DNA of 64,000 nucleotides from Bacteroidales bacterium (GTDB taxonomy: Bacteria; Bacteroidota; Bacteroidia; Bacteroidales; Marinilabiliaceae). The position numbers and the translations under genes were made by a program. Of this stretch, positions 1 through 13,902 are shown in pieces (position 1 is the first letter of the stretch; each line of letters begins with the position of its first letter). The notes under the pieces are model-generated. The model did no database searches and had not been told where the DNA came from. It worked only from the letters and a program-made list of their open reading frames with translations. The stretch covers positions 1-64,000 of the forward strand of contig JAKSLD010000018.1 in the NCBI GenBank assembly GCA_024401395.1, in the 5' to 3' direction.

Positions 1-58
1 ACAAACAAACAAACAAACAAACAAACAAACAAACAAACAAACAAACAAACAAACAAAC
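1..58. repeat. (ACAA)n tetranucleotide microsatellite
   Basis: About 14.5 perfect copies of a 4-bp unit run from the first base of the window to position 58, so the true length is unknown. The tract is not inside a visible gene and ends 78 bp before the first gene of the retroelement. Tracts of this kind change length by slipped-strand mispairing. Because it lies upstream, a length change would alter promoter spacing rather than a reading frame, if it does anything. It could also be a neutral repeat at a contig edge. Confidence 0.95.
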
Positions 59-136
59 TTGTAGTATTACATACGGCAAGAACCACTCGTATAGGTACAT
101 AGGTACTGCTGTGTCTGAAAATGGAAACTTATTGGC

Positions 137-670
137 ATGGCAGGATTAGCAGATATATTGTTAGAAGAGTCAAAGAAGGCTCAAGATGTTATCCTGTTTT
201 TCAGAAACGGGGCGTTTTATCGTGCCTATAACCATAGTGCATATCTATTCTGGAATCTGATAGAGCAATTCAAGGTATTTCACAAGATTAACAAGTCGAC
301 AAAGCAAGAATACTATTTTGTAGGGGCGCCAGAGGGGTCGATGCTGAAGTATATTGCTGGACGGCAGTACACGCAGAACGAGCAAGGCGACATAGTTCTG
401 AGGCTAGATGCAGAGAAAGACAAGATGCCAGAAGATCTGACCTACGAAGAGTGGATAGCTCAATTTGCCAATGAAGAAAATGGAAGTATGGAAGAGGCTC
501 TGAAAGAGGTGCAGTATCTGCTACCCAAGGGAGGACCAGAGCTATACAAGGCGGTGTACAATCAGATAGTAGCGCTACCGCTAGAGCAAATGAACAGTAT
601 GGAGTGCCAAATGTTCCTATACGAACTGAGGAAGCAGATATTTGCCAACAAAAAGAAATTTCCATTTTAG
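137..670 (+). CDS. MutS domain I-like DGR accessory protein (MSL-type)
   Basis: Protein of 177 residues and the first gene of the retroelement unit, 12 bp before the Avd-like gene. Residues 18-31 (VILFFRNGAFYRAY) resemble the start of MutS domain I, where the family has a GDFYE-type motif. A later stretch near residue 62 (VGAPEGSMLKYIAG) resembles the GIPYHAVENYL region of MutS. Only domain I is present; there is no clamp or ATPase. The mismatch-reading Phe-X-Glu of MutS appears here as Phe27-Tyr28-Arg29, so the Phe is kept and the Glu is lost. As I recall, MutS-like proteins have been described beside other DGRs. The role here is inferred: binding the TR-RNA/cDNA hybrid or mismatched duplex. 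No signal peptide or membrane segment is seen. Confidence 0.65.
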   Translation: MAGLADILLEESKKAQDVILFFRNGAFYRAYNHSAYLFWNLIEQFKVFHKINKSTKQEYYFVGAPEGSMLKYIAGRQYTQNEQGDIVLRLDAEKDKMPEDLTYEEWIAQFANEENGSMEEALKEVQYLLPKGGPELYKAVYNQIVALPLEQMNSMECQMFLYELRKQIFANKKKFPF

Positions 671-682
671 GAGGGGCGGCGT

Positions 683-1042
683 ATGGCACTATATTCAGAA
701 TTACCAGTATATAGCAAGACCTACCAGCTATTGTGCGACGTGATGAGGCAGACACCCAATGTGAGGAGGGAGTACAGGTACACCATGTGTCAAGACCTTA
801 CAAGACTGCTGACAGACATGCTAGTGAACATATACGAAGCAAACAGGACGAGGGAAAAGCTAGATGCTATAGAAGAATTGCGGCGAAATGTGGTAAAGGT
901 AAAGATATATCTGCGAGCAATGGTAGATTTAAGGTTGACCTCCGAAGGGTGGTATGTCCAAGAAGCAGAGAAGGCAGAAGACGTGAGCAGACAACTGGCG
1001 TTGTGGGAAAAGTATCTGAGAGGGAAGAAACAGACTATGTGA
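683..1042 (+). CDS. avd: Avd-like four-helix-bundle DGR accessory protein
   Basis: Small helical, basic protein of 119 residues with the layout of the bacterial Avd / four-helix-bundle family: an N-terminal LPVYSKTYQLL segment, the REYRYTMCQDL segment, a long amphipathic helix with many Arg, Lys and Glu residues, and a C-terminal helix ending in KYLRGKK. In the Bordetella phage DGR, Avd forms a pentameric barrel that binds nucleic acid and the reverse transcriptase and is needed for cDNA synthesis and mutagenic homing. It lies 12 bp after the MutS-like gene and 42 bp before the first exported-protein gene, all on one strand, so co-expression is likely. Length matches the family (about 110-130 residues). 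Family assignment is from sequence appearance and context. Confidence 0.85.
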   Translation: MALYSELPVYSKTYQLLCDVMRQTPNVRREYRYTMCQDLTRLLTDMLVNIYEANRTREKLDAIEELRRNVVKVKIYLRAMVDLRLTSEGWYVQEAEKAEDVSRQLALWEKYLRGKKQTM

Positions 1043-1084
1043 CAAAGAAGACAATTACAATATTATTAACTAAATAAAATATCA

Positions 1085-1501
1085 ATGAAGCAGAAAAGAA
1101 TTCTAATGATGCTTATGGCTGGGGCGATAAGTGTTTCGGCTGCGTGGGCAGATGAAGATCCTGCTATTGTGGTGAACAAAGATACGTCGCCACAGTATGT
1201 GAAGCTGACTACTGCTGCTAAGATTACTATTTCGACAGAGGGAGGAGTAGTGAAGTTTGTTGTAGACGAGTCGGCAGAGAAGACAGGCGTTGCAGAAGGC
1301 GAGACGATATCCTTTGGTGTGTATGACTTTGATGCTGTGGAGACAGCGATAGAAGAGCTGTCGGCAGGCAAAGAGATCGTCGGGACGGAATACTACACAC
1401 TTCAAGGTGTGAAAGTAGACGAGCCACAAAAGGGTGTGATGATAATAAGAGTAGTCTATTCCGATGGTACAAGTGACAGTCTGAAAACAATAAAGAAGTA
1501 A
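1085..1501 (+). CDS. Small exported protein with possible C-terminal sorting domain
   Basis: Protein of 138 residues with a clear signal peptide (MKQKRILMMLMAGAISVSAAWA, likely cut after Ala22). The middle (VKLTTAAKITIS, GGVVKFVV, ISFGVYDF) is beta-rich and echoes the N-terminal domain of the next protein (VVITKVGGETIKVAIEDVQDITFAYE, residues about 24-49). The last third contains YYTLQGVKVDEPQKGVMIIR and ends in Lys-Lys, which resembles type A C-terminal sorting signals of the type IX secretion system, usually 'YxLxGxxV...GxYIVxx...KK'. It sits 10 bp before the DGR target, so the two may form a surface pair. No catalytic motif is visible. Function is unknown; export is well supported and type IX sorting is an inference. 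Confidence 0.65.
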   Translation: MKQKRILMMLMAGAISVSAAWADEDPAIVVNKDTSPQYVKLTTAAKITISTEGGVVKFVVDESAEKTGVAEGETISFGVYDFDAVETAIEELSAGKEIVGTEYYTLQGVKVDEPQKGVMIIRVVYSDGTSDSLKTIKK

Positions 1502-1511
1502 AGAAGAAAGT

Positions 1512-2306
1512 ATGAAGAAGATAATTATATCGGCCATTATGGGTTTGATGGCAGTGTGCGGTATGGCACAAGAGACACCAAATACAGTTGTAATAACAAA
1601 AGTGGGTGGCGAGACGATAAAAGTAGCCATTGAAGATGTTCAGGACATTACGTTTGCTTACGAGGCACCAGTGCCAACGGTAGATTTAGTTGACCTTGGT
1701 CTTTCTGTCAAGTGGGCAACATGTAACCTAGGTGCAACTTCACCGACAGATGCAGGATGGTATCTGGCGTGGGGCGAGACATCAGCAAAGACAAACTATA
1801 CTTGGGAGACTTATCTGTCAGACCTTGGCGGAACAATGACACAATGGCAAGATGCAGGCACAGACAAAGATCCACTGAAAGACTATGTCTATGGTGGTTC
1901 TCATTCTGAAGGTATCGGAGCTACAGCTTACGATGCTGCGACAGTTGCTTTAGGTGCGGGCTACCGTATGCCTACACAGACAGAGTTTGCAGAGCTAGCA
2001 AATACGGACAACTGTGCATGGGTATGGTATGATGAAGACAATACCGAATTCAATGGTGTAGCTGGCTATAAGGTAACATCAAAGAAGGCAGGCTATACAG
2101 GCAACTCTATCTTCCTTCCTGCGGCTGGCTGTCGTAACGGAGAGAGCCTCTACTACGAGGGTTCGCTCGGCGTCTACTGGTCGTCTACTCCTTACCCAGG
2201 CAACGCCGTCAGCGCGTACCACCTCGACTTCTATTCGGACTACGTCAGCCCGGACTACGGCAGTAACCGTTATAGCGGGTTCCCTGTTCGTCCTGTTTCA
2301 GAATAG
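1512..2306 (+). CDS. DGR target protein: exported, lectin-fold-like variable protein
   Basis: Protein of 264 residues. Residues 1-20 form a signal peptide (MKKIIISAIMGLMAVCGMAQ). Residues 24-50 form a short beta domain. Residues about 56-264 match the FISUMP/DUF1566-type module common in Bacteroidota (VDLGLSVKWATCNLGA, WGET, GYRMPTQTEF, YWSSTPY, FPVRPV), which is thought to adopt a C-type-lectin or formylglycine-generating-enzyme-like fold. That is the fold used by known DGR target proteins. Residues 202-264 are encoded by the variable repeat. Compared with the template, 20 codons are altered, 18 of them Asn codons in the TR. The TAG stop lies immediately after the VR. The ligand cannot be predicted. 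The current VR encodes many Tyr, Ser, Gly and Asp residues at variable sites, the usual chemistry of diversified binding surfaces. Confidence 0.9.
   Translation: MKKIIISAIMGLMAVCGMAQETPNTVVITKVGGETIKVAIEDVQDITFAYEAPVPTVDLVDLGLSVKWATCNLGATSPTDAGWYLAWGETSAKTNYTWETYLSDLGGTMTQWQDAGTDKDPLKDYVYGGSHSEGIGATAYDAATVALGAGYRMPTQTEFAELANTDNCAWVWYDEDNTEFNGVAGYKVTSKKAGYTGNSIFLPAAGCRNGESLYYEGSLGVYWSSTPYPGNAVSAYHLDFYSDYVSPDYGSNRYSGFPVRPVSE
2115..2303 (+). other. DGR variable repeat (VR)
   Basis: This stretch matches the template repeat at 2670-2858 over 189 bp without gaps (constant offset 555). There are 24 mismatches, and in all 24 the TR base is adenine: 13 A-to-G, 9 A-to-T and 2 A-to-C. No TR C, G or T differs. 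The last 28 bp (2276-2303) are invariant, as expected for the initiation-of-mutagenic-homing side. Just beyond, VR and TR diverge while keeping similar GTCCGATT and GTCGATT strings, which resembles the IMH/IMH* difference of known DGRs. Confidence 0.97.
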
Positions 2307-2669
2307 GTCCGATTCATTCTGATTGATTTAGATTCATTCATTTTTGGTGTCGGCTCGCCCTTAGAAGGCGAGCCGCGGCAAAAATGGGGTAACTTAAAAG
2401 AACGGCGAGAAAGAAAAATAAAGTAACGCTCATCCGAGGCTGGTGCCAGAATGGCATGGTGCTACGGCTCATGCCAGAGAGCGATTGACACATTCAATAC
2501 AGAGCGGCAGTCCGGTGGACGGGACGGGGATAGATGATACCGCCCGTCGGCAAATGGAACCATGAAAAAGTGGAAGTCGTTCGCAATCCATGTGCAGAGC
2601 GCTCACAGAGAGCGAAGAGAGCAATAGCCTTGCGAAGAGACTGAGACATGAGACTGTCCTGCGAAGAGG
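2307..2669 (+). ncRNA. Non-coding spacer, probable 5' part of the DGR template RNA
   Basis: No convincing gene lies in these 363 bp between target and template. The region is rich in short inverted repeats: a 9-bp arm pair at 2351-2359/2367-2375, a 7-bp pair at 2452-2458/2470-2476, and a GACGGG...CCCGTC pairing near 2518-2550. In studied DGRs the TR-RNA starts upstream of the TR and its flanks are folded and bind Avd and the reverse transcriptase. A role as the upstream part of that RNA is inferred; its ends are not visible. Confidence 0.5.
2351..2375 (+). promoter_or_regulatory. GC-rich hairpin downstream of VR
   Basis: Perfect 9-bp inverted repeat CGGCTCGCC / GGCGAGCCG around a 7-nt loop, 45 bp after the target stop codon. 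No T-run follows, so it is a poor intrinsic terminator. In the Bordetella phage DGR a hairpin or cruciform just after the VR boosts target recognition. This one is farther away than in Bordetella, so the same role is only a suggestion. Confidence 0.6.
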
Positions 2670-2858
2670 CTTCCTGCGGCTGGCTATCGTAACGGAGAGA
2701 ACCTCAACAACGAGGGTTCGAACGGCAACTACTGGTCGTCTACTCCTAACCCAGACAACGCCAACAACGCGTACAACCTCAACTTCAATTCGGACAACGT
2801 CAACCCGAACAACAACAATAACCGTTATAACGGGTTCCCTGTTCGTCCTGTTTCAGAA
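2670..2858 (+). repeat. DGR template repeat (TR)
   Basis: Template copy of the VR. Read in the VR frame it holds 21 Asn codons (AAC or AAT); mutating the adenines of AAY codons reaches many residues but never a stop codon. Adenines therefore sit where variation is wanted. The copy lacks the rest of the target gene and begins abruptly at the same base as the homology in the VR. It ends 31 bp before the reverse transcriptase gene. A long open frame across this region (2590-2880) is in a different frame and is not a gene. Confidence 0.97.
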
Positions 2859-2889
2859 AATGTCGATTGGCTTCGGGTGAGTATTTTAT

Positions 2890-4026
2890 ATGGAGACGAT
2901 GAAGAAAAAGGTGGGGAGAGAGCAGTTGCTGCTCGATTTGTACAGAGCATACAAGGGAGCAAGGAAACACAAGCGGGCAAAGAACTACCAGACACAATTT
3001 GAAGAACAACTAGAGAAAAATCTAGTAGAGTTGCGAGACGAGATCTACGAGCGGCGATATGAGCCACGACCCTCGCAGTGCTTTATGATACATGACCCCA
3101 AGATGAGAGAAGTCTTTGCGGCAGACTTCCGAGACAGAGTAGTGCACCATCTAGTGTATGATTATATTGCCAAGATGTTTGAGAGAACATTCATAGCAGA
3201 CACGTACAGCTGTATAAAAGGGCGTGGAACACACTACGGCATAAGGCGAGCACAGCGGATGATACAAGCTTGCTCGCAAAAAAACAAAGGAGAGTGCTAT
3301 GTGCTACAGATGGATATATCAGGGTATTTTATGAGCATAAACAGAGGGAAACTATTGGATATATGCAATAGAACCATAAATAAGATGCAGAAAAGAGAGA
3401 GCGATGAGAAAGGATTGCGATGGGAACAGAAGGTAGACATAGGAATGGTGAGGTATCTGCTAGAAAAGACAATAATGCTAGACCCTACAGATGGATGCTA
3501 TGTGATAGGAGACAGAGAAGAGTGGAAGAAGCTGCCAGACAACAAAAGCCTTTTCAAAGCAGAGGAAGGGCGAGGACTGCCAATAGGCAATCTGACCAGC
3601 CAGCTATTCAGCAATGTATATCTGAACGAGCTAGACCAATATGTGAAAAGAGAACTGGGGTGCGAATATTACGGCAGATATGTAGACGACTGGTTTGTGG
3701 TTCACAGGTCGAAAATATATTTGAGGAGACTGATACCCATAATCAGAGACTATCTAGGAAGAGAATTAGGCTTAGAAGTGCACCCCAGGAAGACGAAGAT
3801 AACCAAGGCGCAATATGGTGTAGCGTTTTTGGGGACATATATAAAACCAGACAGGATATATGTAGAGAATGGAACGTTGAAAAGGATGAGGAAGAAACTT
3901 AGAGCGGCGATACTAGACAAAGAAAAGAGTTTTGAGGGATTGAGGGCTACGGTGGATTCGTACAGAGGGATAACGGGGCACTGGAAGAGTTGGAAGGTTA
4001 GAGAAGAAGTGATGTGGGGGATATGA
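2890..4026 (+). CDS. DGR reverse transcriptase
   Basis: Protein of 378 residues from ATG 2890; an in-frame ATG at 2899 is an equally good start. It carries the RT fingers/palm motifs: YSCIKGRGTHYG (motif 2 area), QMDISGYF with catalytic Asp142, GLPIGNLTSQ at 229-238, and YVDD at 264-267 with the two other catalytic aspartates, followed by FLGTYIKP. The GNLTSQ form of motif 4 is typical of DGR reverse transcriptases, while group II intron enzymes usually have QGxxxSP. There is no maturase or endonuclease domain, and length agrees with DGR enzymes. In the family it copies the TR-RNA to cDNA with errors at adenines, and the cDNA replaces the VR. It lies directly after the TR. All three catalytic Asp are intact, so it should be active. 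Confidence 0.95.
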   Translation: METMKKKVGREQLLLDLYRAYKGARKHKRAKNYQTQFEEQLEKNLVELRDEIYERRYEPRPSQCFMIHDPKMREVFAADFRDRVVHHLVYDYIAKMFERTFIADTYSCIKGRGTHYGIRRAQRMIQACSQKNKGECYVLQMDISGYFMSINRGKLLDICNRTINKMQKRESDEKGLRWEQKVDIGMVRYLLEKTIMLDPTDGCYVIGDREEWKKLPDNKSLFKAEEGRGLPIGNLTSQLFSNVYLNELDQYVKRELGCEYYGRYVDDWFVVHRSKIYLRRLIPIIRDYLGRELGLEVHPRKTKITKAQYGVAFLGTYIKPDRIYVENGTLKRMRKKLRAAILDKEKSFEGLRATVDSYRGITGHWKSWKVREEVMWGI

Positions 4027-4078
4027 GCTATATTTTGCATAATATGAGTCGATGGTTGTTAAAAAAAGGCATTTTTAT

Positions 4079-4107
4079 TTTGGGGTAAACATTTTTTAGT
4101 ATATTTG
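4079..4107 (+). promoter_or_regulatory. Possible Bacteroidota promoter for the 4128 gene
   Basis: TTTG at 4079-4082 and TATATTTG at 4100-4107 match the -33 and TAnnTTTG -7 elements of Bacteroidota, with a 17-nt spacer (slightly shorter than the usual 19-21). The start codon follows 20 nt after the -7 element. Confidence 0.45.
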
Positions 4108-4127
4108 GACGATTTTACACAGAAACG

Positions 4128-4679
4128 ATGCGTTTTCAAGCACCGACCTTCACATACAGCATTGCAGAGCCGGGAGTAGCTAATGCTTCCTTGACCGTGG
4201 GTAATGATATGTTTGCAGACTTTGTGTTGCCGAATGTATGTAACCCCCTTGGCGATCTTCTTACGGGCTTCGTGGAAATGATAACTTGTCCTAAGCATTT
4301 ATGGGGCGAGGATAATGTTGTGCGAATTGTCTGGTATGGAGAAGATGAGCAGTACAACTGGGAGCTGGAGATGTTTGAAGAGAATTCGATATCGGTCAAG
4401 GTGTCACAAGTCAATGATTTCTTTGGAGATGAGGGAGTCGAGCTGCTTTCCTTTGAGTGTCAGTTAGACGAGTTGCTATTACCTATTATACAGAGTCTGG
4501 ATACCTTTATAAAGCAGACCGGTCTATTGAATTATCAGCAGCAGTGGCAGAAAGATGAGTTTCCGCTCACGCTGTTCCTATTCTTGAAGAAGCATCTTAT
4601 AGACAATGGCCGTTGGAACAGGCGGGAGGCGCAAAGGAAAGAAATACTCAATGATGAGATATTGATGCTTTTGGCATAA
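4128..4679 (+). CDS. Hypothetical protein, 183 residues
   Basis: I do not recognise this protein. It looks soluble: no signal peptide and no clear membrane segment. It is acidic in the middle (EDEQYNWELEMFEENS) and ends in a basic, helical tail (NRREAQRKEILNDEILMLLA). It stands alone, with a promoter-like TATATTTG element upstream and 321 bp of leader region downstream, and is separated from the retroelement by 101 bp. Nothing links it functionally to the DGR or to the ilv operon. Its base composition is like that of its neighbours. Small solitary proteins of this size beside accessory loci are sometimes immunity or regulatory proteins, but the sequence does not show that. Confidence 0.65.
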   Translation: MRFQAPTFTYSIAEPGVANASLTVGNDMFADFVLPNVCNPLGDLLTGFVEMITCPKHLWGEDNVVRIVWYGEDEQYNWELEMFEENSISVKVSQVNDFFGDEGVELLSFECQLDELLLPIIQSLDTFIKQTGLLNYQQQWQKDEFPLTLFLFLKKHLIDNGRWNRREAQRKEILNDEILMLLA

Positions 4680-4791
4680 ATATACGTGATGTACTTACGT
4701 ATTAGATGTTCAAGTTGCAGTTTTCACGTAAAATCCTCGTGCTCGGTGTTAATTTATTTACAACGAGTGTACAACATAACGAACTATTGCA

Positions 4792-4799
4792 TATATTTG
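4792..4799 (+). promoter_or_regulatory. Probable -7 element of the ilv operon promoter
   Basis: TATATTTG fits the TAnnTTTG -7 consensus. A start site a few bases downstream would give a 5' leader beginning about 15-20 nt before the leader-peptide ATG at 4823. I see no good TTTG -33 box at the usual distance. The upstream part of this gap (4680-4790) shows nothing else recognisable. Confidence 0.5.
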
Positions 4800-4822
4800 C
4801 ATCGTAATTATTACAAAAAGAA

Positions 4823-4894
4823 ATGTACAACGTACGCAACATACGAGTGGTTGTCCTACTTCTAAACCTTATTGTCCTAGTCGTACAAGGATAA
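4823..4894 (+). CDS. ilv leader peptide (attenuator, 23 codons)
   Basis: Short open frame translating to MYNVRNIRVVVLLLN followed by LIVLVVQG and a TAA stop. Fourteen of its 23 codons specify branched-chain residues: 7 Val, 5 Leu and 2 Ile, mostly in two runs. It lies 106 bp before ilvD, just after a TATATTTG promoter element and just before a terminator with a competing antiterminator. This is the classic design of ilv leader peptides: ribosomes stall on Val, Leu or Ile codons when charged tRNA is scarce and let the polymerase continue. A chance frame with this composition in this position is unlikely. The peptide itself probably has no function. Confidence 0.85.
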   Translation: MYNVRNIRVVVLLLNLIVLVVQG

Positions 4895-4896
4895 TG

Positions 4897-4969
4897 AGTG
4901 AGATGGTTGTTGCAGTATAAATAACATACAGAAACAAGGCCTTCTCACTTTCAGGTGAGGAGGCTTTTT
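4897..4969 (+). terminator. ilv attenuator: antiterminator/terminator switch
   Basis: Terminator: a stem of about 13 bp (4936-4948 with 4955-4967, two G-U pairs) followed by TTTTT. Antiterminator: 4897-4906 (AGTGAGATGG) pairs with 4940-4949 (CCTTCTCACT) at 9 of 10 positions, using the left arm of the terminator. The two structures exclude each other. A ribosome at the leader stop (4892-4894) would cover 4897-4906 and favour termination; a ribosome stalled on the upstream Val/Leu/Ile runs would leave it free. Confidence 0.85.
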
Positions 4970-5000
4970 GATTTGAAAAAATAAAACGAACTGACAAGAT

Positions 5001-6833
5001 ATGAAGCACGAACTTAGAAGCGCTACTACTACACAGGGTAGACGTATGGCAGGTGCCAGAGCTCTTTGGGCTGCTAATGGAATGAAGCCTGAGCAGGTTG
5101 GCAAACCTATTATTGCGATTGTGAATTCATTTACGCAATTTGTACCAGGTCACACACATTTGCACGAAATCGGTCAGGTCGTCAAGAGCGAGATAGAGAA
5201 GAGAGGATGTTTCGCTGCTGAGTTTAATACTATTGCCATTGACGATGGTATTGCGATGGGACATGACGGTATGCTTTACTCATTGCCATCGCGAGACATT
5301 ATAGCTGATTCAGTAGAGTACATGGTAAATGCTCACAAGGCGGATGCCATGGTATGTATTTCGAACTGTGACAAGATTACTCCTGGTATGCTTATTGCTG
5401 CCATGAGACTCAATATCCCAACAGTATTTGTGTCGGGCGGTCCAATGGAGGCAGGCGACCTGAATGGTACGAAGCTAGACTTGATAGATGCCATGATCAA
5501 GTCGGCCGACACAACACTATCAGATGAAGAAGTAGCAAAAGTAGAGGCGAAGGCTTGTCCTACCTGTGGTTCATGCTCGGGTATGTTTACAGCCAACTCA
5601 ATGAATTCATTGACAGAAGCCATTGGTCTTTCATTGCCAGGCAACGGTTCTATTGTAGCTACACACGAGAACAGACACAGACTCTTCTGCGATGCTGCAA
5701 AGCTCATCGTAGAGAACACATACAAGTATTACAGAGACGGAGACGAGAGCGTATTGCCAAAGAGCATTGCTGTCAAGGAAGCATTTATGAATGCCATGAC
5801 ACTTGACATAGCGATGGGCGGTTCGACAAATACCATTCTTCACCTTTTGGCTGTAGCCTACGAAGCGGGAGTAGACTTCAAGATGGCAGATATCGATGCA
5901 TTGAGCAGAAGAATACCATGCCTCTGTAAGGTTGCTCCAAATACACAGAAGTACCACATACAAGATGTAAACCGTGCTGGTGGTATTCTAGGTATTATGA
6001 ACGAGTTGGCAAAAGGCAAGCTAGTCAACACATCGCTCAAGCGAGTAGACGGCATGACCTTGAAAGAAGCTGTAGAGAAGTACGATATTACAGTTGAGCG
6101 TCCTACTCCTGCAGCCAAGAAGCTATACACATCGGCTCCAGCAAATAAGTTCTGCATCAGACTTGGTGCTCAGAATACATATTACGAGTCACTAGACACA
6201 GACAGAGCTAACGGTTGTATCCGCGATATAGAGCATGCCTACACAAAAGACGGAGGCTTGGCAGTATTGTTCGGCAACCTTGCTATTGACGGCTGTGTAG
6301 TCAAGACAGCGGGTGTAGACGAGTCGATCTGGCACTTTGAAGGTCCAGCTAAGGTATTTGATTCACAAGAGTTAGCTTGTGAGGGTATCCTTGGTGGCAA
6401 GATCAAGAGTGGAGACGTAGTAGTCATCACCCATGAGGGTCCAAAGGGCGGTCCAGGTATGCAAGAGATGCTTTACCCAACAAGCTATATCAAATCAATG
6501 CACCTTGGTAAAGAGTGTGCCTTGATTACAGACGGACGTTTCTCTGGCGGTACATCAGGATTGTCAATCGGACACATTTCACCAGAGGCTGCTGCAGGAG
6601 GAAATATCGGCTTGATTAAAGACGGCGATATTATTGAGATAGACATTCCATCAAGAAAGATATGCGTACATCTTTCAGACGAAGAGCTTGCTGCTCGTCG
6701 TGAAGAAGAGATGAAGAGAGGCAAGAAAGCCTTTACAGCACCTACACGACAGAGAAACGTACCAAAGAGCCTGATGGCATACGCATCGATGGTAAGTTCG
6801 GCAGACAAGGGTGCGGCACGTATTATTGAGTAA
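5001..6833 (+). CDS. ilvD: Dihydroxy-acid dehydratase
   Basis: Protein of 610 residues, full length for IlvD/Edd family enzymes. It dehydrates 2,3-dihydroxy-3-methylbutanoate (and -pentanoate) to the 2-keto acids, the third step of valine and isoleucine synthesis, using an iron-sulfur cluster. Visible family motifs are [12 protein letters not shown] and [18 protein letters not shown], which carry the cluster-ligand cysteines, and [20 protein letters not shown] near the C-terminus. It is cytoplasmic. It is the first structural gene after the attenuator and is followed 34 bp later by ilvB. Expression should depend on charged Val, Leu and Ile tRNA through the leader. Confidence 0.97.
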
Positions 6834-6867
6834 TTGAGATTGAACCCATAATCGATCCGAAAAAAGA

Positions 6868-8571
6868 ATGACAGGTTCAGAAGCTATAATAGAATCATTA
6901 CTTGCTGAAGGGGCAGACACCATCTTTGGTTATCCAGGAGGTCAGATCATGCCAGTCTTTGACAAGATGTATGATTATCAAGATAAGTTGCGTCATATCC
7001 TTGTGAGACATGAACAAGGAGCAGTGCATGCGGCGCAAGGCTTTGCCAGGGCATGCGGTAAGACAGGAGTAGTTATTGTTACATCCGGTCCGGGCGCGAC
7101 GAATGTGATTACAGGCATTGCTGATGCGATGGTAGATTCCACTCCATTAGTAGTGATTACAGGACAGGTTTCAAATTCACTTCTAGGCAAAGATGCATTC
7201 CAAGAGACAGACGTCCTTGGCATCACATTACCAATTACGAAGTGGAGCTATCAGATACAGCGTCCAGAAGATATAGCGTGGGCGGTAGCACGTGCGTTCT
7301 ACATTGCGAAGAGCGGCCGACCTGGTCCGGTAGTCCTTGACGTCACGAAAGATGCGCAGGTAGGCACACTTGACGAATTCAAGTATGAGCCATGTAGTTT
7401 TATCAGGAGCTATATACCTGTACCTACGATACAGAAGAGCAAGTTGCAGGAAGCAGCAAAGATGCTTTCAGAGGCAAAGAAGCCATTGATAGTATACGGG
7501 CAGGGCATTATTCTGTCTCACGCAGAAGAAGAATTGAAAGCGCTCTGTAACAAAGCAGGTATTCCAGCGGCATCCACATTGCTTGGTCTTTCTGCATTAC
7601 AATCAGATTTCAAGCACTACAAAGGAATGCTTGGTATGCATGGAAATATTGGTCCGAATGTCAAGACAAATGAGGCAGACGTTATTCTGGCTGTCGGCAT
7701 GAGATTTGACGACCGAGTTACAGGCGCAGTAAATACATATGCAAAGCAAGCCAAGATAATCCATATAGACATAGACGTAGCAGAGATTGGAAAGATTATA
7801 CCAGTTGACCTAGGTATACATGCTGATGCAAAAGAGGCGCTCAATCTGCTGTCGATTCTTACTCCAGAGGCAGAGCATGATGCTTGGGAGGCAGAATTTG
7901 ACAAGTGCTACGAGACAGAATACAATAAGGTAGTCGCTCCAGAAATTGCACCAGGCAAGGGAGATGTCAATATGGGTGAGGTAGTCAACATGGTTGCGAA
8001 AGTATCCAATCAGTCAGCTATTGTGGTTACCGACGTAGGTCAGAATCAGATGATGGGTGCGCGATACTCGCAGTTTAACCAGACACGAAGTATGATTACC
8101 TCCGGTGGTCTTGGTACTATGGGTTTCGGCTTGCCAGCAGCTATTGGAGCCAAGATAGCGCAGCCAGGCAGACCAGTATGTTACTTTGGCGGTGATGGTG
8201 GTGTTCAGATGACCATTCAGGAATTCGGCACTATCATGCAAGAGAAGATAGGAGTTAAAGTTATCATACTCAACAACAACTGGCTTGGCAATGTAAGGCA
8301 GTGGCAGGAACTCTTCTTTGGTGCTAGATATTCTCAGACAAGAATGGTAAACCCTGACTATATGAAGATAGCCGAGGCTTATGGATTTGCCCATAAGAGA
8401 GTTACGACAAGAGAAGAGTTGAAGTCGGCAGTAGAAGAGATGCTTTCGAATGACGAGCCATATATCCTAGAGGCCTGCATTGTAGAAGAAGGTATGGTAT
8501 TCCCTATGATTCCTCCAGGAAAGGGTGTTACAGACATTATGTTGAACGCTAAAGAATGGTACCAGATATAA
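6868..8571 (+). CDS. ilvB: Acetolactate synthase, large (catalytic) subunit
   Basis: Protein of 567 residues of the thiamine-diphosphate family. It condenses two pyruvates to acetolactate, or pyruvate with 2-ketobutyrate. The N-terminal domain has FGYPGGQIMP and RHEQGAVHAAQGFARA, the latter with the catalytic Glu that activates the cofactor. The middle domain is present. The C-terminal domain has the GDGG...LNNNWLGNV cofactor motif. It is followed 3 bp after the stop by its regulatory subunit ilvN, so the two are almost certainly translationally linked. The order ilvD-ilvB-ilvN-ilvC is usual in Bacteroidota. Confidence 0.97.
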   Translation: MTGSEAIIESLLAEGADTIFGYPGGQIMPVFDKMYDYQDKLRHILVRHEQGAVHAAQGFARACGKTGVVIVTSGPGATNVITGIADAMVDSTPLVVITGQVSNSLLGKDAFQETDVLGITLPITKWSYQIQRPEDIAWAVARAFYIAKSGRPGPVVLDVTKDAQVGTLDEFKYEPCSFIRSYIPVPTIQKSKLQEAAKMLSEAKKPLIVYGQGIILSHAEEELKALCNKAGIPAASTLLGLSALQSDFKHYKGMLGMHGNIGPNVKTNEADVILAVGMRFDDRVTGAVNTYAKQAKIIHIDIDVAEIGKIIPVDLGIHADAKEALNLLSILTPEAEHDAWEAEFDKCYETEYNKVVAPEIAPGKGDVNMGEVVNMVAKVSNQSAIVVTDVGQNQMMGARYSQFNQTRSMITSGGLGTMGFGLPAAIGAKIAQPGRPVCYFGGDGGVQMTIQEFGTIMQEKIGVKVIILNNNWLGNVRQWQELFFGARYSQTRMVNPDYMKIAEAYGFAHKRVTTREELKSAVEEMLSNDEPYILEACIVEEGMVFPMIPPGKGVTDIMLNAKEWYQI

Positions 8572-8573
8572 AG

Positions 8574-9140
8574 ATGGAAGAGAATAACAATACGATGTTC
8601 ACCATTACGGTGTACGGAGAGAACCAGGTAGGTCTGTTGAATCAGATATCTATCATTTTTACTCGAAGGAATCTGAATATCTGGAGTTTGACGGTATCAT
8701 CTACAGTAATAGAGAACGTACATAAGTTCACGATTACCTGTAGAACCAGCAGGAAGCAGATAGATGCGGTAGTCAAGCAGATAGAGAAGAGGATAGATGT
8801 CATCAAGGCATTCTACTATACAGATGACGAGATAATCTATCAAGAGTTGGCGTTGTACAAGGTTCCTACGGATGCTATTTTAGACGATTCCAATTTTGAG
8901 CAACTTCTCCATGCGCACAATGCACAAATTCTTGAGATAAACCGTACATTTGTAGCGATTCAGAAGACTGGACACTGTCATGAGACGGCAGAACTTTACG
9001 AGGCGCTATCCAAGTATGGTGTTTTGCAGTTTGTCCGTTCGGGACGAGTAGCAATCACGAGGAGTCCGCTTGAGCCAGTGAACAGTTATCTGGAGGCTAG
9101 AGAAGAGTACAGAAAAGAGTTAGAATCAAAGAAAAAATAA
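8574..9140 (+). CDS. ilvN: Acetolactate synthase, small (regulatory) subunit
   Basis: About 188 residues from ATG 8574 (MEENNNTMFTITVYGENQVG). The open frame extends upstream to an ATG at 8556 that overlaps the end of ilvB, but the family N-terminus begins with the ACT domain at FTITVYGENQVGLLNQI, so 8574 is preferred. The ACT domain (about residues 9-85) binds valine and gives feedback control of the catalytic subunit. The C-terminal half is the usual small-subunit extension. It lies 3 bp after ilvB and 24 bp before ilvC. In some Bacteroides an acyl-ACP thioesterase gene lies between ilvN and ilvC; there is none here. Confidence 0.93.
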   Translation: MEENNNTMFTITVYGENQVGLLNQISIIFTRRNLNIWSLTVSSTVIENVHKFTITCRTSRKQIDAVVKQIEKRIDVIKAFYYTDDEIIYQELALYKVPTDAILDDSNFEQLLHAHNAQILEINRTFVAIQKTGHCHETAELYEALSKYGVLQFVRSGRVAITRSPLEPVNSYLEAREEYRKELESKKK

Positions 9141-9164
9141 TAAACTAATAATATACAAGAACAA

Positions 9165-10208
9165 ATGGCAAAGATGAATTTTGGTGGTGTTATCGAAGAG
9201 GTGGTAACACGCGACGAGTTCCCATTGAACAAGGCACTTGACACACTCAAGGACGAGACAATCGCTGTAATCGGTTATGGCGTACAGGGTCCTGGTCAGT
9301 CACTTAACCTTCGTGACAACGGTTTCAACGTAATCGTTGGTCAGCGTCCAGGTAAGACATACGACAAGGCAGTAGCAGATGGTTGGGTACCAGGCAAGAC
9401 ACTCTTCGGTATTGAGGAGGCAGCAGAGAAGGCATCAATCATCATGTGTCTTCTTTCAGATGCAGCTGTAATGTCAGTATGGCCAACATTGAAGAACTAC
9501 CTCAAGCCAGGTAAGGCACTTTACTTCTCACACGGTTTCGCTATTACATGGAACGATCGTACAGGATGTGTACCTCCAACAGACGTAGACGTTATTATGG
9601 TTGCACCTAAGGGTTCTGGTACATCACTCCGCAGAATGTTCCTTGAGGGTCGTGGTTTGAACTCATCATTTGCTGTTTACCAGGATGCTACAGGCAAGGC
9701 TATGCAGCGTACACTTGCACTTGGTATCGGTATTGGTTCTGGTTACATGTTTGAGACAACATTCCAGCGTGAGGCTACATCAGACTTGACAGGTGAGCGT
9801 GGTTCATTGATGGGTGCTATCCAAGGTCTTCTCCTTGCGCAGTACGAGGTACTCCGTGAGAACGGCCACACACCATCAGAGGCATTCAACGAGACAGTAG
9901 AGGAGCTCACACAGTCGCTCATGCCACTCTTCGCAGAAAAGGGTATGGACTGGATGTATGCAAACTGCTCTACAACAGCACAGCGTGGTGCACTTGACTG
10001 GATGACTCCATTCCACGATGCAATCAAGCCAGTTGTACAAAAGCTCTACAACTCGGTTAAGACAGGTAACGAGGCACAGATTTCTATCGACGCTAACTCT
10101 AAGCCTGACTACCGTGTAGGTCTCGAGAAGGAACTTGCAGCTCTTCGTGAGAGCGAGATGTGGCAGACAGCTGTTACAGTACGTAAGCTCCGTCCAGAGA
10201 ACAACTAA
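9165..10208 (+). CDS. ilvC: Ketol-acid reductoisomerase
   Basis: Protein of 347 residues. It converts acetolactate to dihydroxyisovalerate with NAD(P)H and Mg2+, the second step of valine and isoleucine synthesis. The Rossmann motif GYGVQGPGQSLNLRDNG is at about residues 38-54. It is followed by VGQRPGKTYD, the loop that sets NADH or NADPH preference; I cannot decide the cofactor from it. The knotted C-terminal domain includes GERGSLMGAIQGLL with metal and substrate residues. Codon choice is strongly biased to GGT, CGT and AAG, suggesting high expression. A strong hairpin terminator follows at 10245. Confidence 0.96.
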   Translation: MAKMNFGGVIEEVVTRDEFPLNKALDTLKDETIAVIGYGVQGPGQSLNLRDNGFNVIVGQRPGKTYDKAVADGWVPGKTLFGIEEAAEKASIIMCLLSDAAVMSVWPTLKNYLKPGKALYFSHGFAITWNDRTGCVPPTDVDVIMVAPKGSGTSLRRMFLEGRGLNSSFAVYQDATGKAMQRTLALGIGIGSGYMFETTFQREATSDLTGERGSLMGAIQGLLLAQYEVLRENGHTPSEAFNETVEELTQSLMPLFAEKGMDWMYANCSTTAQRGALDWMTPFHDAIKPVVQKLYNSVKTGNEAQISIDANSKPDYRVGLEKELAALRESEMWQTAVTVRKLRPENN

Positions 10209-10244
10209 TATCAGGTTGATTTAGAAGAAACAATCTAATACGTA

Positions 10245-10280
10245 TCAGTCGCCAGTAATGGTGCTGGCGACTGATTTTTT
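10245..10280 (+). terminator. Intrinsic terminator between ilvC and leuA
   Basis: An 11-bp perfect stem (10245-10255 with 10264-10274, core CAGTCGCCAG/CTGGCGACTG) with an 8-nt loop, followed by TTTTTT. It ends only 13 nt before the leuA start codon, so leuA transcription by read-through would have to pass it. Confidence 0.85.
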
Positions 10281-10293
10281 AATATTACTTTTT

Positions 10294-11802
10294 ATGGATA
10301 ATAAGGTCTACATTTTTGATACTACATTACGAGACGGCGAACAAGTTCCGGGATGCCAGTTAAACACAGTCGAAAAGATTCAAGTTGCTAAGCAGCTAGA
10401 AGCCCTAGGTGTAGATATCATTGAGGCCGGTTTCCCTATTTCCAGTCCCGGCGACTTCAACTCGGTAGTTGAGATTTCGAAGGCAGTTACATGGCCTACC
10501 ATTTGTGCTTTGACCCGTGCAGTTGAGAAAGATATTGACGTAGCGGCAGAAGCTCTTAAATATGCAAAACATAAGCGAATCCACACAGGTATTGGTACCA
10601 GTGATTCGCACATTAAATATAAGTTCAACTCGACACGTGAAGAGATTATTGAGAGAGCTGTAAAGGCAGTCAAGTATGCTCGCAGATACGTGGACGATGT
10701 TGAGTTCTATGCAGAAGATGCCGGTAGAACAGAGAATGAGTATTTGGCGAGAGTAGTAGAGGCGGTTATTGCTGCTGGAGCTACGGTAGTAAATATTCCA
10801 GATACTACTGGTTACTGTTTGCCATCAGAGTTCGGTGCAAAGATTAAGTATCTCTGTGACAATGTTAAGAATATAGACAAAGCTATTATTTCTACGCACT
10901 GTCATAATGACCTTGGTATGGCTACCGCCAATACTATTTCAGGTTTGATAAACGGTGCGCGTCAGTGTGAGGTAACAATCAACGGTATTGGAGAGCGTGC
11001 TGGTAATACATCACTTGAAGAGGTGGCTATGATATTGAAGTGTCACAGTCATTTGGCGCTTCAGACAAATATCAATACACAGAAGATATATCCTACGAGC
11101 CGTATGGTATCCAGTCTGATGAATATGCCAGTTCAGCCAAACAAAGCTGTAGTGGGTAAGAATGCATTTGCTCATTCAAGCGGAATTCACCAAGATGGCG
11201 TGCTCAAGAATGTTCAGACGTACGAGATTATGGACCCACAAGAGGTAGGTTTGGATGTCAATTCGATTGTATTGACAGCTCGTTCGGGTCGTGCGGCGTT
11301 GAAGCACAGACTTCATGTATTGGGAGTAGACCTTGAGGGAGAGAGTCTTGACAAGGTATATGAGCAATTCTTGAAGCTAGCAGACAAGAAGAAAGAGATA
11401 AATGATGATGATTTGTTGGTATTGGCTGGTGCTGATACTACTAAGGATCACCATATCAAGCTAGACTTCTTGCAGGTTACTTCTGGAGTCGGTGTAAGAC
11501 CAGTTGCTTCAGTAGGATTGGATATTGCTGGAGAGAAGTTTGAGGCTGCGGCTACTGGTAATGGTCCGGTAGATGCTGCTATCAACGCATTGAAGCAGAT
11601 AATCAAGAGACATATGGTACTCAAAGAGTTTACCATCCAGAGTATCAATAAGGGTTCTGATGATGTTGCAAAGGTACATATGCAAGTTGAGTATGAAAAC
11701 CATATCTATTATGGTTTCGGTGCGGGTACAGATATTGTACAAGCTTCAGTTGATGCATATCTAGATGCGATAAACAAGTTTACAAAGAAGGCTACAATCT
11801 AA
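10294..11802 (+). CDS. leuA: 2-isopropylmalate synthase
   Basis: About 502 residues from ATG 10294 ([20 protein letters not shown]). An upstream in-frame ATG at 10258 would lie inside the terminator hairpin and is rejected. The TIM-barrel domain carries DTTLRDGEQ and [15 protein letters not shown] with the metal-binding His residues, plus [15 protein letters not shown]. The C-terminal portion (about residues 375-500) is the LeuA dimer/leucine-binding regulatory domain. It condenses 2-ketoisovalerate with acetyl-CoA, the first committed step of leucine synthesis, using the product of the upstream ilv genes. Citramalate synthase is a relative, but overall motifs and length fit LeuA better. leuB, leuC and leuD are not in the window. 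Confidence 0.88.
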
Positions 11803-11826
11803 ATCATAGGTAGTTGCAACGATAAG

Positions 11827-11858
11827 AAAGGGAGTCCCGATGGGGCTCCCTTTTTTTT
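11827..11858 (+). terminator. Terminator after leuA
   Basis: Stem GGGAGTCCC/GGGGCTCCC (11830-11838 with 11842-11850, one G-U pair) with a 3-nt loop and a T8 run. It separates the ilv-leu operon from the convergent dnaG gene and may act weakly in the other direction as well. Confidence 0.9.
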
Positions 11859-11874
11859 GTTTATACGAAACGGA

Positions 11875-13902
11875 TCACCACATTCGTTCGCCCAAGGTAG
11901 AGGCGATACCCTTTCTGACATTCAGCCAATTCATATATTCTCGTGTGAGAGATTCCTGTTGTTCAGAATCGGTGCAAGAAGCGATGCGCTGTGTGAGGTC
12001 GTTTATGGTCTGTTGGACGTATTTGTATCTAAGTTGGGATACGGTTTTAGGAATCAGTTCGTCAAGGCTAGCCTCTTCAGGTTCTATGACGCCGTATCGT
12101 TTGTGCATTTTAGAAAGTTCTATGGTGTCGCTAGTAAGTTCGATTACACGTTTCACCATATCCAAGTTAGAACTTGCGGTATAGGAATTGAGAGGAGCAT
12201 CAGGTTTTTCGGTATAAAATTCAAAGATGCTATTGAATACAGGGTCCAGACTCTTGTAGTTATCGCACTCCAAGCACTCCTTTATATATGCTCCAACGGT
12301 AGATACTTTGTCGTTATAAGACAATTCGCAGTGCATATATTTAAGGAAGAAGCGGAGAATCTCCTGTTCCTCACGAAAATAAGGGTTTGCGAAATCGGCT
12401 GCCTCCATTTGTTGCTGTTCGGCTATATTCTGGGCAGCCTGTTCAAGTCCGGACAGGGTAGTATCAGGGTTTGTCGGAGCTACAGTAGTCTGTTGGAAAC
12501 TGTTAGCCAGAGAAGCGCGGGCTTTAGCCTGTTGGTTAGCTAAATTCTGGCGCACCTGCTGGTTATGTTGTTCTGTAGCAGTACGTTGGGCATCAGCCAC
12601 CACACGTTTTTGGAGGACCTGATATATGACATCCTCACGTATATCCATTAATTTGGCGCACTCCTTAACGTAATATTCACGTAGGATGAGGTCTTGGACT
12701 GCTGCGATAGACTCAACGATACTATTTACGGCAGCACTTTTGCGTTGAGGGTCATTCTCAGCATCCTTCAAAAGGACACTAGCCTTGAACTGGATGAAAT
12801 CAGTCTGGTGAGAATTGATATACTCAACGAACTCCTCGGCAGTATGCTTAAGGGCGAAAGAGTCAGGGTCCTCGCCATCAGGAAGGAGAAGAACCTTAAC
12901 ATTCATACCCTCTTTGAGGATCATATCGATACCGCGCAGAGAAGCCTTGATACCAGCGAAGTCGCCATCATATAGCACCGTCATATTATTGGTGAAGCGC
13001 TGGATAAGCTTTATCTGGTTGGTGGTAAGTGACGTACCGCAAGAAGCTATGACATTTGTGATGCCAGACTGGTGCATAGAGATAACATCAGTATATCCCT
13101 CGACGAGGTAGCATTTATCCTGACGGATTATTTCGTTTTTAGCCTGAAAGATACCATAAACGACATCACTCTTATGGTAGAGTTCGTATTCTGGGGAATT
13201 GAGGTACTTAGCAGTCTTGGCGCTAGTCTGCATTACGCGGCCACCGAAAGCTATGATTTTACCAGAGATGCTATGAATAGGGAACATGACACGTCCCCAG
13301 AAGCGGTCGGCCTGATAATTATTCTCACCAACGATAGTCAAACCAGTCTCAGAGAGATATTCAATTTTGTACCCGGCGTTAAGGGCATCAGTGGTAAAAG
13401 CGTTATGCTGCTGCATGGAGTAGCCCAGACCAAACTCCTTTATAGTATTATCTGTAAAACCGCGGTGGCGGAAATAAGCCATACCCACAACCCGGCCCTC
13501 GTCGGTATCCCAGAGATTAGAGATAAACTTCTTATGGGCGAACTCCATGACGGTGGACAAACTCTCGCGATGGCTCTGAGCCTCCTTCATTTCAGGGGTC
13601 AGTTCCTTTTCCTTCACCTCGATACCCACACGTTTGCCGAGGAATTTGACAGCTTCGACAAAAGTGAGGTGATCATGGTCCATGACAAAAGAGAGAGAGT
13701 TGCCTGCTTTACCGCAGCCAAAGCATTTATAGATACCCTTAGCAGGAGATACAGTAAAAGAACCCGTCTTCTCGTTGTGAAAAGGGCAACAGCCGATATA
13801 ATTAGCTCCTCGTTTTTTGAGGGAGACATAATCGGATATTATATCAACTATACTGCTATTCGCAGATTCTACTATACTATCAATAACTGCTCTTTCTATC
13901 AT
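11875..13902 (-). CDS. dnaG: DNA primase
   Basis: Protein of 675 residues. The N-terminal CHC2 zinc finger has Cys39, His42, Cys60 and Cys63 (CPFHNEKTGSF ... YKCFGCG). It is followed by the RNA polymerase core and the TOPRIM fold (YLVEGYTDVISMHQSG, VIASCGTSLT, VLYDGDFAG). The C-terminal region, with a Gln/Ala-rich linker near residues 440-500, is the helicase-interacting part. It makes RNA primers for DNA replication. It starts 13 bp after the MBOAT gene and points the same way, so it is probably read from the O-acylation pair's transcript, which is unusual; dnaG more often sits beside rpsU and rpoD. Confidence 0.96.
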   Translation of the reverse strand: MIERAVIDSIVESANSSIVDIISDYVSLKKRGANYIGCCPFHNEKTGSFTVSPAKGIYKCFGCGKAGNSLSFVMDHDHLTFVEAVKFLGKRVGIEVKEKELTPEMKEAQSHRESLSTVMEFAHKKFISNLWDTDEGRVVGMAYFRHRGFTDNTIKEFGLGYSMQQHNAFTTDALNAGYKIEYLSETGLTIVGENNYQADRFWGRVMFPIHSISGKIIAFGGRVMQTSAKTAKYLNSPEYELYHKSDVVYGIFQAKNEIIRQDKCYLVEGYTDVISMHQSGITNVIASCGTSLTTNQIKLIQRFTNNMTVLYDGDFAGIKASLRGIDMILKEGMNVKVLLLPDGEDPDSFALKHTAEEFVEYINSHQTDFIQFKASVLLKDAENDPQRKSAAVNSIVESIAAVQDLILREYYVKECAKLMDIREDVIYQVLQKRVVADAQRTATEQHNQQVRQNLANQQAKARASLANSFQQTTVAPTNPDTTLSGLEQAAQNIAEQQQMEAADFANPYFREEQEILRFFLKYMHCELSYNDKVSTVGAYIKECLECDNYKSLDPVFNSIFEFYTEKPDAPLNSYTASSNLDMVKRVIELTSDTIELSKMHKRYGVIEPEEASLDELIPKTVSQLRYKYVQQTINDLTQRIASCTDSEQQESLTREYMNWLNVRKGIASTLGERMW

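Follow-up and report, generated by a model that had tools for sequence, protein, structure and literature searches.

Few systems are able to rewrite selected genes, and diversity-generating retroelements (DGRs) belong to them. In the DGR of Bordetella phage BPP-1 (avd-TR-brt, with mtd as target), the mismatches between the variable repeat (VR) of the target and the template repeat (TR) are confined to adenines. DGRs with several or remote VRs have already been described (PMC3521204), among them that of Treponema denticola (PMC4891356). MSL (Pfam PF01624) has been named beside HRDC as a known DGR accessory in PMC10053308, in a passage that states no function for it. Here we describe a DGR that carries both MSL and Avd, located in a 64,000-nucleotide stretch of DNA ("the window") from a Bacteroidales bacterium (assembly GCA_024401395.1, contig JAKSLD010000018.1, positions 1 to 64,000 of the forward strand). 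The source genome is 3.30 Mb in 47 contigs and 97.9% complete, and the window lies on its contig C10. The complete DGR occupies window positions 137-4026, with every part on the + strand:

137-670, + strand: MSL gene, 177 aa (Pfam MutS_I, 23.2 bits against a cut-off of 20.6)
683-1042, + strand: Avd gene, 119 aa (PHROG 3206, "Avd protein of DGR", E 6.6e-16)
1085-1501, + strand: companion gene, 138 aa, exported-looking, between Avd and the target and directly 5' of the target
1512-2306, + strand: target gene, 264 aa, C-type-lectin fold, Lcl_C/FISUMP-like, with the VR at its 3' end
2115-2303, + strand: VR, changed positions confined to 2131-2275
2276-2303, + strand: unchanged 3' end of the VR, identical to the TR; by analogy a candidate initiation-of-mutagenic-homing segment
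2351-2375, + strand: perfect inverted repeat of 9 bp (loop of 7 nt) lying 47 nt past the VR (DNA fold z -6.4)
2670-2858, + strand: TR
2890-4026, + strand: DGR reverse transcriptase (RT), 378 aa (Pfam RVT_1, 64.3 bits; PHROG reverse transcriptase, 3e-96)

An earlier note on this DNA had placed a VR-bearing target, a TR, an RT with YVDD and GNLTSQ, an Avd-like gene and a MutS-domain-like gene on one strand within 4 kb. All of these are present where it put them, although its list of parts left out the companion gene at 1085-1501. The reading frames of RT, Avd and MSL are open. Alignment with other DGR RTs showed both RT motifs to be intact, identifying an RT of the YxDD/GNxxSQ type. Two accessory genes accompany it, Avd (recognized by PHROG) and MSL (recognized by Pfam); elsewhere Avd scored under the cut-offs (NCBIfam DivGenRetAVD, 44.9 bits against 80; Pfam bAvd, 29.6 against 40).

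Template, variable repeats and targets

The VR is 87% identical to the TR over 195 nt. All 24 mismatches between the two fall on TR adenines (TR 2670-2853, in which 53 of 184 positions are A; hypergeometric p = 1.0e-15), with 13 of these adenines changed to G, nine to T and two to C, and no off-adenine difference was found across the 184 nt. When the source genome was searched with the TR, 10 matches came up. Two are the window TR and VR themselves; contigs C43 and C21 have one each, C27 has one that is the TR of a second DGR, C46 has four partial ones and C15 has one. The C21 match differs from the window TR at 28 positions, 26 of which are TR adenines (p 9e-15), and the C43 match at 27 positions, 24 of which are TR adenines (p 2e-12). 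Judged by these mismatches, both are VRs of the window TR, and near-identical TR/VR pairs with adenine mismatches are found in cis as well as in trans. Three of the four C46 matches provided a negative control: over 71 nt they carry 8, 8 and 9 off-adenine mismatches against 5, 6 and 9 on adenines, and thus are not VRs of the window TR. In both trans VRs the identity to the TR stops near TR 2853. The inverted repeat that follows the cis VR is a possible hairpin or cruciform of the target site; the same scan in trans found none after the C21 VR and a 7-bp one after the C43 VR.

The targets of this one template differ in build. The C21 target has 278 aa, an N-terminus unlike that of the window target and a short tail after the VR, while the contig end truncates the C43 target 5' of its VR, past which the target continues for ~230 residues. 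Contigs C7 and C42 each carry the companion gene and then the first 181-184 residues of a target that is 85-87% identical to the window target, cut by the contig end ~20 codons short of the VR, and the C43 piece may be part of one of these two targets. In all, three VRs were observed, and there are at least four target genes (C10, C21, C7 and C42). The window VR lies within a gene whose product is modeled as a C-type-lectin fold, with Mtd among the fold matches of the predicted structure; the protein scored 24.4 bits with Pfam Lcl_C, under the cut-off of 34.9, and Foldseek at E <= 0.001 returned no match for either predicted model (MSL or target). The element likely continues to rewrite the predicted binding faces of several lectin-fold proteins whose export is likewise predicted. 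The earlier reading of the element as a DGR that diversifies an exported protein is supported, export itself being a presumed property.

Adenine positions vary among relatives; in the case of the second DGR, they also vary from one species to another. Among ten related targets (the window target, the C21 target and eight others), each of the 21 AAC/AAT codons of the TR shows 4-7 kinds of residue. Where the first or second codon position is A (30 codons), the mean is 4.2 residue kinds, against 1.4 for the 31 other codons and 1.5 over the rest of the protein (145 positions; p = 1.8e-9). Five proteins of the original 15-row alignment (P0005, P0010, P0013, P0014 and P0016) were dropped from this count as more distant or lacking the VR, and P0009 and P0012, which have nearly the same VR, were counted separately. 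The second DGR, on C27 of the same genome (L019 469-2996), consists of VR, MSL, TR and RT, with no Avd, and its MSL and RT are 30% and 54% identical to those of the window DGR. Its cassette is 95.8% identical to that in another species of the genus (G011). Between the two species there are 0 differences in the 215-nt TR region, and 27 of the 28 differences between the VRs lie at TR adenines; compared with its own TR, one VR has 24 of its 25 mismatches at A and the other has all 24 there. The presence in two species of an identical TR with VRs that differ at its adenines indicates that adenine-directed rewriting has occurred in nature.

Taken together, these data indicate that the window element is very probably a DGR in which one TR matches VRs in at least three targets (one in cis, two on other contigs) and the RT is predicted to copy it with adenine errors and overwrite them, assisted by presumed accessory proteins. 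The TR would be transcribed into RNA, which the RT would copy with errors at adenines; the cDNA would then be integrated, overwriting the VRs in cis and on other contigs, and the target proteins would be exported. Alternatively, the cassette could be a relic, once functional, whose VR changes are now frozen. This would be compatible with the existence of decaying relatives that have one stop inside each RT match (G035:C29:3100-4167 and G045:C5:38549-39616), and with the two and three off-adenine differences in the C21 and C43 VRs. However, we consider a relic improbable given the open frames of RT, Avd and MSL, a cis VR that over 184 nt has kept to the template everywhere except at adenines, and the sister DGR, whose VRs differ between two species that have the same TR. 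An origin of the VRs without reverse transcription, as ordinary paralogs that drifted apart through duplication, conversion and selection, is very hard to credit and was rejected: the genome does hold a large family of related proteins, with 25 matches to the window target, but the mismatches lie at the template adenines of one strand (p 1e-15 to 2e-12), the VRs of the two species differ almost entirely at A of an identical TR, and true paralogs, like the C46 control segments, differ off the adenines too.

With one template matching dispersed targets, three of them preceded by a nearly identical companion, the arrangement points to a coordinated lectin-like repertoire rather than a single changing protein.

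The MSL protein and the accessory step

MSL residues 2-95 model as the mismatch-recognition domain of MutS, followed by helices (model pLDDT, the predicted local distance difference test score, 86.7), and in a fold comparison of residues 1-94 the MutS family fills rows 1-40 of 50, over ~80-90 residues. Domain I is the only part of MutS that Pfam and the fold comparison found in the 177-aa protein; the connector, clamp and ATPase domains are absent. The Phe-X-Glu motif of MutS is not retained as such, since in a 47-row MSL alignment, which leaves out two MSL fragments and an apparent fusion, 46 of 47 rows have the wedge Phe and one has its partner Glu. The window MSL is acidic and the window Avd basic (isoelectric points 5.4 and 9.1). 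A protein search with MSL returned one protein, 99% identical, and the MSL profile gave no hit among the sequences of solved structures. In our literature search, which did not cover the most likely source, Wu et al. 2018, we found no statement on MSL function, on the lost Glu, on an MSL-Avd fusion or on an Avd-free MSL clade.

We compared accessory genes across 84 related loci. Of 418 loci, the 80 most similar to these RTs were taken, together with 7 pieces from the source genome or the same family, and three duplicates were removed (L085 of G011, L087 of G002 and L122 of G048). The resulting fractions apply to these RT relatives and do not describe DGRs at large. Using seeds from the window, C27, G011 and G002 to search open reading frames (ORFs), we detected MSL in 50 of the 84 loci: 29 have MSL and Avd, 21 MSL only, 23 Avd only and 11 neither. 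MSL is 5' of Avd in all 28 two-gene loci, at most 12 nt apart or overlapping in 24 and with a gap of 173-1200 nt in the others. In the remaining locus, L147 (1378-2271), a 297-aa ORF matches the MSL profile over residues 33-151 and the Avd profile over 163-271, with E values of 8e-10 and 8e-7 from profiles built without L147. A Pfam scan recognized neither half, and this apparent MSL-Avd fusion rests on the leave-out profiles. Adenine-biased VR/TR pairs, for which we required seven or more mismatches at A and no more than one elsewhere within 90 nt, were found in 19 of 21 MSL-only loci, 19 of 29 with MSL and Avd, 19 of 23 with Avd only and two of 11 with neither. Six loci of Alistipes, Rikenella and Paludibacter (L111, L115, L124, L128, L131 and L140) have an MSL-Avd pair ~1.8-5 kb 5' of the RT, and five of them show no clean VR/TR pair by this filter.

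Eleven MSL-only loci have both a complete MSL and an RT core that could be placed. In these, MSL and RT are separated by 331-493 nt, TR included, which leaves little or no room for Avd. An Avd-profile search of 20 other genomes with MSL-only DGRs, for only two of which completeness is given (87 and 88%), found nothing in 18 and weak matches of 28.8 and 31.8 bits in two. In an RT tree of 83 rows, midpoint-rooted for drawing and with one locus left out under the length filter, all 21 MSL-only rows fall inside one 22-row clade (support 100/99), whose 22nd row is L091, a locus that begins where its contig does. The RT of the window belongs to a neighboring 7-row clade of MSL+Avd loci (98/85), and both clades lie within a 31-row clade (100/97). 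The simplest reading of this tree is a single loss of Avd with MSL retained. The source genome itself holds both kinds of cassette, MSL+Avd in the window and MSL-only on C27.

The adjacent genes and the apparent fusion suggest that Avd, MSL and RT act in one complex. MSL could be a scaffold that docks RT and Avd on the TR-RNA, unrelated to mismatches, and that took over the docking role of Avd in the Avd-free clade. This is plausible, although we would stop a little short of calling it probable. The close adjacency of MSL and Avd in 24 of 28 loci and the possible fusion in L147 agree with it, an acidic MSL beside a basic Avd suits a protein partnership, and adenine-mutated VRs occur in 19 of the 21 loci that have MSL without Avd; yet the conserved block of MSL is the mismatch-binding end of MutS, including the wedge Phe, and a mere scaffold would need none of it. 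On our preferred reading MSL, a MutS mismatch-binding domain that kept this Phe and lost the Glu and the whole ATPase, would handle mismatched duplexes: it would hold a duplex full of mismatches, either cDNA paired with TR-RNA or cDNA paired with VR, and not summon repair. More tentatively still, and with considerable doubt, we propose that MSL is a MutS mismatch-recognition domain retuned by loss of its discriminating Glu to hold error-rich DGR duplexes and fend off host mismatch repair, that it replaced Avd in one Bacteroidales-rich lineage, giving rise to an Avd-free class of DGR, and that the window element, which belongs to the sister lineage and has both genes, represents the step before that loss. 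At stake is the way in which a cDNA carrying some two dozen mismatches enters its target and escapes repair. Should MSL prove to be a MutS recognition domain put to new use and able to replace Avd, the accessory step would become directly testable, the same genome offering MSL+Avd and MSL-only cassettes.

Companion gene and genomic setting

Copies of the companion gene on C7 and C42 are 100% and 99% identical to that of the window, and each lies directly 5' of a target gene. The window companion has no family match in Pfam, NCBIfam or PHROG, including the type A sorting domain of the type IX secretion system (T9SS; TIGR04183). Targets were detected in 57 loci, in 38 of them away from the contig start; from these 38 we picked 11 upstream ORFs by eye for scanning. 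In seven related loci (G011, G035, G045, L106, L113, L118 and L138) the ORF directly 5' of the target bears the T9SS sorting domain above cut-off, and the proteins are small and exported-looking:

L074 6158-6670: T9SS-domain ORF 5' of target
L077 633-1124: T9SS-domain ORF 5' of target
L078 2410-2898: T9SS-domain ORF 5' of target
L106 1667-2143: T9SS-domain ORF 5' of target
L113 1170-1679: T9SS-domain ORF 5' of target
L118 1497-2003: T9SS-domain ORF 5' of target
L138 885-1319: T9SS-domain ORF 5' of target

Among the other scanned ORFs, L084 reached 15.4 bits with this domain, below cut-off, and the window companion, L101 and L121 gave no match. Profile comparison of the window companion with the T9SS-domain proteins gave a probability of 57%, and the source genome encodes the T9SS protein SprA (2498 bits). 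A T9SS-sorted partner for DGR targets is, as applied to the window companion, a lead.

Just past the window, C10:65369-67573 (in L021) holds a paralog of the companion (52% identical) with two target paralogs. The TR search of the genome gave no match near this site, indicating that the companion-target pair also occurs without a VR of the window TR. A family of 150-174-aa proteins adjoins the targets on C7, C21 and C42 (copies at L025 2679-3170, L024 2702-3151 and L023 4330-4854); its 26 matches on many contigs, query included, ruled it out as a DGR part, and the C42 copy matched no Pfam or NCBIfam family at cut-off.

Window positions 1-58, just 5' of the MSL gene, are a perfect ACAA tandem repeat of 14.5 copies with the contig start inside it, which may have caused the assembly to break here. 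Contig C10 ends at the first base of the window, so the sequence 5' of the MSL gene is not readable. On the 3' side the cassette is followed by an ORF without family match (4128-4679) and then by ilvD, ilvB and ilvN, so that its site looks chromosomal. With these as the nearest identified genes, and with the unreadable 5' side in mind, a phage-borne DGR is disfavored. A scan of viral contigs with the window RT gave seven pattern matches, none confirmed as a relative, and an Rfam scan of window 1-12000 found nothing.

Comparison with known systems

The window cassette shares with the BPP-1 DGR its Avd, TR and RT, the adenine-confined VR/TR mismatches, a target of C-type-lectin fold and an inverted repeat behind the cis VR, although the hairpin loop and its distance differ. 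Unlike the phage element, it has chromosomal surroundings, MSL, a companion gene and targets on several contigs. In this last respect it resembles the multi-VR DGRs described in PMC3521204 and PMC4891356, where one TR likewise matches VRs in several paralogous targets, some of them far from the cassette. In contrast with those DGRs, the targets of the window TR vary in the N-terminus and in the sequence after the VR, and where the Treponema denticola DGR uses an HRDC accessory, the window DGR has MSL and Avd. The window MSL has the same Pfam domain and the same role as a DGR accessory gene as the MSL named in the passage of PMC10053308. Compared with MutS itself, MSL retains the fold of domain I and the wedge Phe, while it has lost the Glu in 46 of 47 sequences and has no connector, clamp or ATPase domain.

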